Source: Thioalkalivibrio sp. ALJ7 (GTDB taxonomy: Bacteria > Pseudomonadota > Gammaproteobacteria > Ectothiorhodospirales > Ectothiorhodospiraceae). From it: DNA of 64,000 bases. This document shows, piece after piece, positions 47,672 to 51,078 of the stretch (its first letter is position 1; each line of letters opens with the position of its first letter). The stretch is from the NCBI RefSeq assembly GCF_000376865.1, contig NZ_AQXQ01000012.1:620001-684000 (forward strand), read 5' to 3'. A program made the translations under genes and the position numbers. The notes below the pieces were generated by a model. The model was not told where the DNA came from. It saw only the letters and a list, made by a program, of their open reading frames with translations, and did no database searches.

Positions 47672-47959
47672 TCACTCGATTACGCGCGGGACCAGATACA
47701 GGCCGCCCTCGACTGCCGGCGCGATCGCCTGGAAGGTTTCGCGGCGATCCGACTCGGTGACCGCATCCGGGCGCAGGCGCTGCTCGGCATCCAACGGGTG
47801 GGCCATCGGCTCCACGCCGTCGATGGCCGCGCCATCCAGTTGTTCGACAAAAGCAAAGATATCGCTCAGCCCCCCCGCAAAATCCCGGGCCTGGTCGTCA
47901 TTCATGGCCAGACGGGAGAGATGGGCGATGCGCCGGACTTCAGAGGTATCGACGGACAT
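47672..47959 (-). CDS. gatC: Asp/Glu-tRNA amidotransferase subunit C
   Basis: GatC wraps around GatA and GatB and stabilises the complex. The 95-residue product (normal size) begins MSVDTSEVRRIAHLSRLAMN and contains GLSDIFAFVEQLDGAAIDGV and PDAVTESDRRETFQAIAP. Start 47959 follows AGGA. It is the first gene of gatCAB and is divergent from mreB. Confidence 0.93.
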   Translation of the reverse strand: MSVDTSEVRRIAHLSRLAMNDDQARDFAGGLSDIFAFVEQLDGAAIDGVEPMAHPLDAEQRLRPDAVTESDRRETFQAIAPAVEGGLYLVPRVIE

Positions 47960-48029
47960 GGCGGGGAAGGTCCTGTAGCGGTCGGATGCAATGGGTGAAA
48001 CGGAGCGCAAACTTACCACAAAGCCGTTG

Positions 48030-49147
<1,118 letters not shown>

Positions 49148-49305
49148 TACGGAGCCATCCCGCCCGTGCCTCCCCGGCGCGGGTCTCCCCGAACGACAGG
49201 TTCGGGTTACACTCCGGGCCGAAAAGGCCAGCAAAACGCCGCAGGGCGATGCCCTGACGCGACCGCCTTGCCTCATCGAAGCGATCCGCAACCGGAGGTC
49301 ACGCC

Positions 49306-50214
49306 ATCAGCAAACCGCTGTTCAGACTGGGTGTCTCGCCCACTCTGCGCCTGCTCGCGGCCATCCTGCTGGGCCTGGCGCTGATGGCGCTGGACCACCG
49401 TGTCAATGAGCTACAGGCCGTTCGTGGTGCCCTTGCCAGCATCACCTATCCGCTCCAGGTGGCTGTCGATGCCCCCGTGCGGGCCGTCAGCCGAGTGTTC
49501 GAGTCGTTCACCAGTCGCGAAGACCTGATCACCGAGAACCGCATCCTGCGTAGCGAGAATGCGGAACTGCGTGCCCGCCAGCTGCGGTTCGAGGCCCTGC
49601 AGTTGGAAAATGACCGCCTGCGGGCCCTGCTGAACACCGCACAACGGGCGGAAGAGCGCGTGGAGATCGCCAAATTGCTCGCCGTGGATCTCGATCCCTT
49701 CCGGCAACAGATCGTGCTCAACAAGGGGCGCAACGAAGACGTCTACGTCGGGCAGCCGGTGATCAATGCCGACGGCGTCATCGGCCAGATCCTGTCCACC
49801 CGCCTGACCAGCTCGGTCGCCCTGCTGATCTCCGATCCCAGCCATGCGCTGCCCGTCCTGAGCGCGCGCACGGGTCTGCGCGGCCTGGTGGTAGGCACCG
49901 GCAACCCGCAACGCCTCGAGATGCGCCACGTGCCCCTGCAGGAGGACGTGGAACCCGGGGACCTGCTGCTGACCTCCGGGCTCGGCGGGCGCTTCCCGGC
50001 GGACTACCCGGTGGCCCGCGTCACTTCGGTAGAACGCCCCCAGGGCCAGCCATTCCTGAGCATCGAGGCGGAACCGCTGGCGGCCCTGGACCGCTCGCGC
50101 GAGGTTCTTCTGCTGTGGACCGACGCAGACACCCCTATCGCCCCCATCGACGCCGGCGACACATTGGACGTTCCGCCCCAGGAAGGCGCTGAAGCGGCGC
50201 CCGACACCCCGTGA
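49306..50214 (+). CDS. mreC: Rod shape-determining protein MreC, probable ATC start
   Basis: MreC is the bitopic elongasome protein that activates PBP2/RodA. From the first ATG (49384) the product lacks most of its membrane anchor. Reading upstream in frame gives SKPLFRLGVSPTLRLLAAIL and LGLALMALDHR, a normal MreC N-terminus with basic end and TM helix, preceded by GGAGG (49294-49298) 7 nt before an ATC codon at 49306. An in-frame TGA at 49255 and no ATG/GTG/TTG until 49384 exclude a usual start. The rest is typical: coiled coil (about 65-110), then the beta domain with VINADGVIGQI and DLLLTSGLGGRFPADYPV. 302 residues from 49306. Confidence 0.88.
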   Translation: MSKPLFRLGVSPTLRLLAAILLGLALMALDHRVNELQAVRGALASITYPLQVAVDAPVRAVSRVFESFTSREDLITENRILRSENAELRARQLRFEALQLENDRLRALLNTAQRAEERVEIAKLLAVDLDPFRQQIVLNKGRNEDVYVGQPVINADGVIGQILSTRLTSSVALLISDPSHALPVLSARTGLRGLVVGTGNPQRLEMRHVPLQEDVEPGDLLLTSGLGGRFPADYPVARVTSVERPQGQPFLSIEAEPLAALDRSREVLLLWTDADTPIAPIDAGDTLDVPPQEGAEAAPDTP

Positions 50215-50702
50215 CCCGAGCAATCGGGATCCCCTGGCCGGTGCTACTGACCCTGCTGGCGGCTCTGGCCCTGGCCATCATCCCCATCCCCGATGCCCTG
50301 CGCCCGGCACGCCCGGAATGGCTGGCCCTGGTACTCATCTACTGGGCCATGGCCTTCCCATCACGCATCGGCATCCTGACGGCCTTCGTCGCCGGGCTCA
50401 TGCTGGACACCCTGCTCGGACAGCTCCTGGGCCAGAACGCCATCGCCCTGGCGGTGGTGACCTACATCGTGCTGCAGATCCATCCTCGCCTAAGGGTCTA
50501 CCCCGTCTGGCAACAGATGATCGTGGTGGCTCTATTGATGGCCCTGTTCAAGCTGCTCGCGCTGTGGCCGCAGGGCATCACGGGGTTTCCACCGGGCAGC
50601 ATCCTGTACTGGTTACCAGTGGTGACCAGCACCCTGGCCTGGCCCCTGATGTATTTCCTCTTGCGCGACATGCGCAGACGCTGGCTACTGCACCTGACCT
50701 GA
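50211..50702 (+). CDS. mreD: Rod shape-determining protein MreD
   Basis: MreD is the multi-pass inner-membrane partner of MreC and MreB. The 163-residue product, starting with GTG at 50211 inside the mreC stop (GTGA), has about five membrane helices, with RPEWLALVLIYWAMAFPSRI, GLMLDTLLGQLLGQNAIALA and a basic C-terminus (RDMRRRW). Start overlap implies translational coupling to mreC. Confidence 0.92.
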   Translation: MTRAIGIPWPVLLTLLAALALAIIPIPDALRPARPEWLALVLIYWAMAFPSRIGILTAFVAGLMLDTLLGQLLGQNAIALAVVTYIVLQIHPRLRVYPVWQQMIVVALLMALFKLLALWPQGITGFPPGSILYWLPVVTSTLAWPLMYFLLRDMRRRWLLHLT

Positions 50703-50775
50703 CCGCGTGCCAACCCGCTCGAAGCGAACCCCCGCGGTCGCGCATACTGTGCCCCGAATCCACAAGGAGCGATCC

Positions 50776-51078
50776 ATGGACCCGAACAAGCAAACCGAAA
50801 TCGAAGCCGCTGTGTTTCGCCGCCTGCTGCAACACCTGGATGAGCGCAAGGACGTGCAGAACATCGACCTAATGAACCTCGCCGGTTTCTGCCGCAACTG
50901 TCTGTCCAAATGGTATGCAGCCGCTGCCGAGGAACGCGGCGAGTCCGTCGACTACGAAGGCGCGCGCGAGATCGTCTACGGCATGCCCTACAGCGAGTGG
51001 AAAGAGCGCTACCAGCAGGAAGCGACGCCGGATCAGAAGGCGGCCTTCGAGGCCAGTCAGAAGAAACACAATGCATGA
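50776..51078 (+). CDS. DUF1244 family protein
   Basis: A 100-residue soluble protein of the DUF1244 family. It shows the family's central LMNLAGFCRNCLSKWYAAAA with a CxxC, then EIVYGMPYSEWKERYQ. Function is unknown; the CxxC and acidic residues have suggested metal binding. ATG 50776 is preceded by AAGGAG at 6 nt. It overlaps rnd by 8 bp, so the two are co-translated. Confidence 0.87.
   Translation: MDPNKQTEIEAAVFRRLLQHLDERKDVQNIDLMNLAGFCRNCLSKWYAAAAEERGESVDYEGAREIVYGMPYSEWKERYQQEATPDQKAAFEASQKKHNA

Follow-up and report, generated by a model that had tools for sequence, protein, structure and literature searches.

An apparent AUC start codon of mreC in Thioalkalivibrio belongs to a start class retained across much of the Gammaproteobacteria and may limit MreC synthesis

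Where does translation of mreC begin if the reading frame has no ordinary start codon ahead of the membrane helix? The question is raised by Thioalkalivibrio sp. ALJ7, a member of the Ectothiorhodospiraceae. We analysed 64,000 nucleotides of its genome (assembly GCF_000376865.1, contig NZ_AQXQ01000012.1, positions 620,001 to 684,000 of the forward strand), here called the window. Coordinates are positions in the window. The operon order mreB-mreC-mreD was confirmed, and the following features are relevant.

48101..49147, + strand: mreB, ATG start; from gene order and profile matches
49306..50214, + strand: mreC, 302 residues, ATC to TGA; from translation and profile matches
50211..50702, + strand: mreD, GTG start overlapping the mreC stop (GTGA); from gene order and profile matches
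49306..49308, + strand: predicted mreC start codon ATC; the only start that keeps the helix, codon class conserved
49294..49298, + strand: Shine-Dalgarno (SD) sequence GGAGG, 7 nt 5' of the ATC at 49306
49351..49392, + strand: N-terminal membrane helix of MreC, approximate, placed by eye from the translation; aligned in relatives

A sequence-only reading had proposed that mreC starts at the ATC. Its description of the site was borne out. The mreC frame contains a TGA at 49255-49257 and, on direct reading, no ATG, GTG or TTG before the ATG at 49384. GGAGG lies where it had been placed. The frame 5' of ATG 49384 does encode a basic end and a membrane helix; the residues after the ATC are S-K-P-L-F-R, followed by the hydrophobic helix. 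Basic end and helix are complete only with the ATC start, and both are conserved in N-terminal alignments. The ATG at 49384 sits within the helix. Pairing with the anti-SD was calculated at -10.2 kcal/mol for ATC 49306 and -3.4 kcal/mol for ATG 49384. Read from 49306, the product matches TIGR00219 with 184.2 bits (cut-off 92.75) and PF04085 with 134.5 bits (cut-off 28), identifying it as MreC. An Rfam scan of 47800-50800 and a promoter and terminator scan of 48900-49500 each returned zero matches.

Is the codon shared by relatives? We refer to ATC, ATT or ATA at the mreC start as ATH, and to ATG, GTG or TTG as canonical. Searching 47 genomes of the family gave 46 readable mreC genes and one genome with no mreC match. 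All 46 were ATH: 44 ATC, one ATT (L062) and one ATA (L015). At the position aligned with residue 1 of MreC from the window, 52 of 53 loci had ATC and one (L015) had ATA. Named Thioalkalivibrio records (L031-L051) read ATC in 21 of 21 cases, many of these being duplicates of genomes counted elsewhere in the relatives set. Two named Cycloclasticus records read ATC, then ATA. The sequence-only reading had named ATG at this exact codon in relatives as the observation to look for; it occurs in none of the 46 family genomes and is found in other families, for instance in E. coli. A sequencing error, or a recent mutation of ATG, has only the oddity of the codon in its favour. It is refuted by the 46 of 46 ATH family genomes and the uniform Thioalkalivibrio records, and its probability is negligible.

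The codons that follow the start also differ from the rest of the gene in one group. Codons 2-15 (49309-49350, + strand) carry fewer synonymous changes than the remainder of mreC in clade 1, with a mean major-codon frequency of 0.947 against 0.774 (p 5.5e-5). When the whole genus set of 29 genomes was taken, the difference did not reach significance (p 0.09).

We extended the comparison to the class, taken to be Gammaproteobacteria as GTDB defines it on the strength of the named Thioalkalivibrio and Cycloclasticus records. In total 171 loci were read, 46 from the family and 125 others. The latter came from 207 matching genomes of 229. Higher-ranking matches were for the most part read ahead of lower ones, which leaves the most divergent mreC genes under-represented. 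Exclusion of six unclear rows (L120, L135, L167, L189, L190 and L195) left 165 genomes from 102 families, a set that does not include E. coli. In 29 rows the start was shifted by hand, 1-12 codons from the alignment column; 6 of these 29 count as ATH. An ATH start was found in 124 of 165 genomes and 69 of 102 families, and a canonical start in the other 41 genomes. The individual codons were ATC (83), ATT (25), ATA (16), ATG (26), GTG (13) and TTG (2). By family, 68 were purely ATH, 33 purely canonical and one mixed. The sequence-only reading had placed mreC beside a few isolated ATC or ATT cases; across the families read, the ATH start proves much more widespread. Canonical codons occur in a third of families; therefore, the trait can be lost.

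The surroundings of the ATH codons were similar across the class. No in-frame canonical codon was present upstream in 102 of 124 ATH loci, and 99 of 124 had none either upstream or within the next 8 codons. An upstream stop lay at most 10 codons away in 71 of the 124 and at most 3 codons away in 16. At least four of the five letters of GGAGG preceded the start in 115 of 124 ATH loci but in only 2 of 26 ATG loci. SD spacing was 5-8 nt in 108 of the 124.

These data bear on two other possible starts. If translation began at ATG 49384, the upstream frame would be untranslated. This is the first ATG in the frame, and an ATG at codons 21-32 is present in 113 of 124 ATH loci. The SD at such ATG codons is weak (median -2.2; -4 or below in 12%), a protein started at 49384 would lack most of the helix, and the frame ahead of this ATG shows conservation at the protein level. 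This start was rejected on those grounds and is very improbable. Alternatively, translation could begin upstream of 49306, where the Ile would then be internal. In its favour, 22 of 124 ATH loci either carry an in-frame canonical codon further upstream or have a frame that runs to the end of the stretch. Six family genomes (L009-L014) have an in-frame stop two codons 5' of the ATC; therefore, a start further up is impossible there. The window itself has no canonical codon from TGA 49255 to the ATC, and the SD directly precedes the ATC. We rejected an upstream start, which we consider just as improbable. We conclude that ATC 49306 is almost certainly where mreC translation begins, with Met as the initiating residue. 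The case is strong because the codon class is conserved, stops lie close upstream, the SD is correctly positioned and alternatives are lacking.

How old is the ATH start? In the order of genome G207, which we take to be Pseudomonadales, mreC was found in 36 of 37 genomes. By eye, the 30 loci returned comprised 22 ATH and 8 canonical starts; some of the ATH rows (L311, L323 and L329) also have a canonical codon upstream, and one genome (G207) overlaps the first set. In each of two small orders surrounding ATG-type genomes, every start was canonical (6 of 6 and 3 of 3). Outside the class, 31 loci were sampled from the rest of the phylum and three on the wrong frame (L252, L254 and L261) were excluded. 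Read by eye, the remaining 28 all had ATG, GTG or TTG ahead of the helix. E. coli K-12 mreC starts with ATG. On an MreC tree with outgroups, ATH starts were clumped, with 15 changes compared with a shuffled mean of 38.9. Reconstruction gave 1-5 gains and 10-17 losses at gain costs of 1-3; a cost of 5 placed ATH at the root, with 20 losses. The tree is a quick one of a single gene, with the family thinned by hand to 10 of 46 rows, and these numbers are rough. As reconstructed, the ATH start of mreC is old and mostly inherited, because it is clumped on the tree and gains are few.

Does a strong SD compensate for the poor codon? In the first set, ATG loci had a median SD energy of -2.4, or -2.05 with corrected rows, compared with -7.3 for ATH loci of other families. 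Genome-wide SD use does not explain the difference. For mreB the median was -3.65 among 12 genomes of ATG type and -3.75 among 8 of ATH type, and the fraction of neighbouring ORFs with an SD at -4 or below was 0.55 and 0.43, respectively. The relationship failed in 22 further ATG loci, where the median was -4.75, and inside the G207 order there was no SD difference (p 0.33). A tree-based pair test was underpowered, with 5 supported pairs and a median p of 0.25. Hence, a strict rule of strong SD or canonical codon, clear in the first set, had to be tempered. Accessibility of the start site was nearly equal at ATH and canonical loci (0.47 and 0.44).

A separate element lies in the mreB-mreC intergenic stretch. 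ACTCCGG at 49211-49217 (+ strand) contains CTCCGG, complementary to the mreC SD core CCGGAG. The predicted fold of the window pairs ACTCCGG with the mreC SD (z -2.65). Of the 16 clade-1 Thioalkalivibrio genomes, 15 have CTCCGG at 31-108 nt 5' of the mreC start, in varying surroundings. An excess of SD complements upstream of mreC was not general beyond clade 1. The element is possibly one arm of a helix that sequesters the SD, or it may belong to a promoter (TTACACT/TAAACT). In a rod-shaped strain of Cupriavidus metallidurans, two mutations between mreB and mreC are reported and predicted to improve a large stem-loop (PMC13192273). They give a further indication that the intergenic region may be relevant to cell shape.

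Among genes that start in this way, infC is the closest to mreC: both have an AUH start and a strong SD, conserved in the class. Near the expected infC start, 29 of 30 class loci have an ATH codon preceded by an SD that pairs at -4 kcal/mol or below. The 25 codons upstream were free of canonical codons in 26 of those 29, the window's genome included; L202 had GTG/TTG only. In the window's genome (L201), infC starts with ATT, and its SD pairs at -6.4 kcal/mol. The genes differ in that feedback by IF3 on its own gene is established for infC, whereas mreC encodes no translation factor. Reportedly, work by Hecht in 2017 obtained initiation from all 64 codons. As a further control, mreB had an ATG start in 20 of 20 genomes, in a scan that accepted canonical codons only. 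The pcnB gene of E. coli (NC_000913) resembles mreC in its AUU start; unlike that of mreC, its ATH start is not class-wide, because most pcnB starts among 30 loci of the class were canonical or unclear. E. coli K-12 mreC is the same gene, in the same mreB-mreC-mreD order and with its start at the aligned codon, but that start is an ATG without a good SD.

The literature offers one similar case. The sigR gene of Streptomyces is described as having a conserved non-canonical start behind a strong SD; it is repressed by IF3, and this sets the ratio of its product to a partner protein of the same operon (PMC5472188). That start is GTC/GTT, reported in 34 Streptomyces genomes and experimentally tested (PMC5472188); the predicted mreC start is AUH and spans many families. 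In Listeria, rare or flexible starts are reported for <0.3% of core genes (PMC13068326). Proteogenomics of Xanthomonas euvesicatoria gives ATT for infC, and mreC is absent from the main text of that paper (PMC5559785). Within the open-licence PMC literature, we found no report tying mreC to a non-canonical start.

Why would such a start be kept? We favour, with a probability of roughly 0.75, an old and retained AUC, AUU or AUA start with a strong SD, kept by selection to limit MreC synthesis. Each of the three codons mispairs with the initiator anticodon at its third base only, the other two being matched. Starts of this type tend to be rejected by IF3. In vitro, IF3 is reported to disfavour weak third-base pairs (PMC10158994). 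The strong SD would recruit ribosomes and keep initiation possible, while the poor codon would throttle commitment. MreC output would be capped below what the message could give, inside mreBCD. Since the GTG of mreD overlaps the mreC stop (GTGA), MreD may be coupled to mreC translation and share the cap. We infer the low initiation rate, the selection on dosage and the IF3 sensitivity from these comparisons. That the start codon caps MreC expression is probable; IF3 control that is put to physiological use is plausible, though less likely than not.

The sequence-only reading had called mreC translation deliberately weak. Indirect support comes from the interchange of ATC, ATT and ATA and from E. 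coli, where MreC excess is reported to deform cells and the MreC:MreD balance to govern PBP2 (PMC7793260). Canonical codons are present in 34 of 102 families. Movement among the three ATH codons in 69 families is consistent with selection against efficient initiation and is no proof of IF3 control. The IF3 sensitivity that the sequence-only reading suggested would follow by analogy with infC and sigR.

Two readings compete with a selected dosage cap. In the first, the ATC start is real and has no regulatory role; a strong SD suffices and drift keeps the codon. The three ATH codons interchange, some families have ATG, the trait is mostly inherited and SD strength does not generally compensate for the codon, all as drift would allow. 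However, a single base change would give ATG, and still all 46 family genomes (46 of 46), like 68 of the 102 families, are purely ATH. We consider drift alone improbable. The second reading is a specific switch, in which MreC would follow free IF3 or IF3 per 30S and elongation would thereby sense the translation machinery. The third base alone varies, infC has the same codon class across the class, and the sigR work (PMC5472188) and the IF3 experiments in vitro (PMC10158994) serve as precedents. Against this, E. coli and the 33 purely canonical families manage without it. We consider a specific switch plausible, though less likely than not.

Three features of IF3-class start genes were found at mreC: an AUU, AUC or AUA codon without a canonical alternative, a conserved codon class and a strong, well-spaced SD. 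One consequence is practical. Gene callers restricted to ATG, GTG and TTG would misplace or truncate mreC in many genomes, removing the membrane helix. If the codon does limit MreC, one-base changes would be a clean dosage test of the MreB:MreC:MreD ratio against cell width, and mreC would join infC and sigR as a gene whose protein ratio is written in its start codon. More speculatively, mreC could be the second class-wide IF3-type start after infC, such that ribosomal fidelity, in terms of IF3 per 30S subunit, would set MreC dosage, elongasome activity and cell width. Such a connection, itself a tentative proposal, may be ancient and present in most families of the class outside the lineages that returned to ATG.
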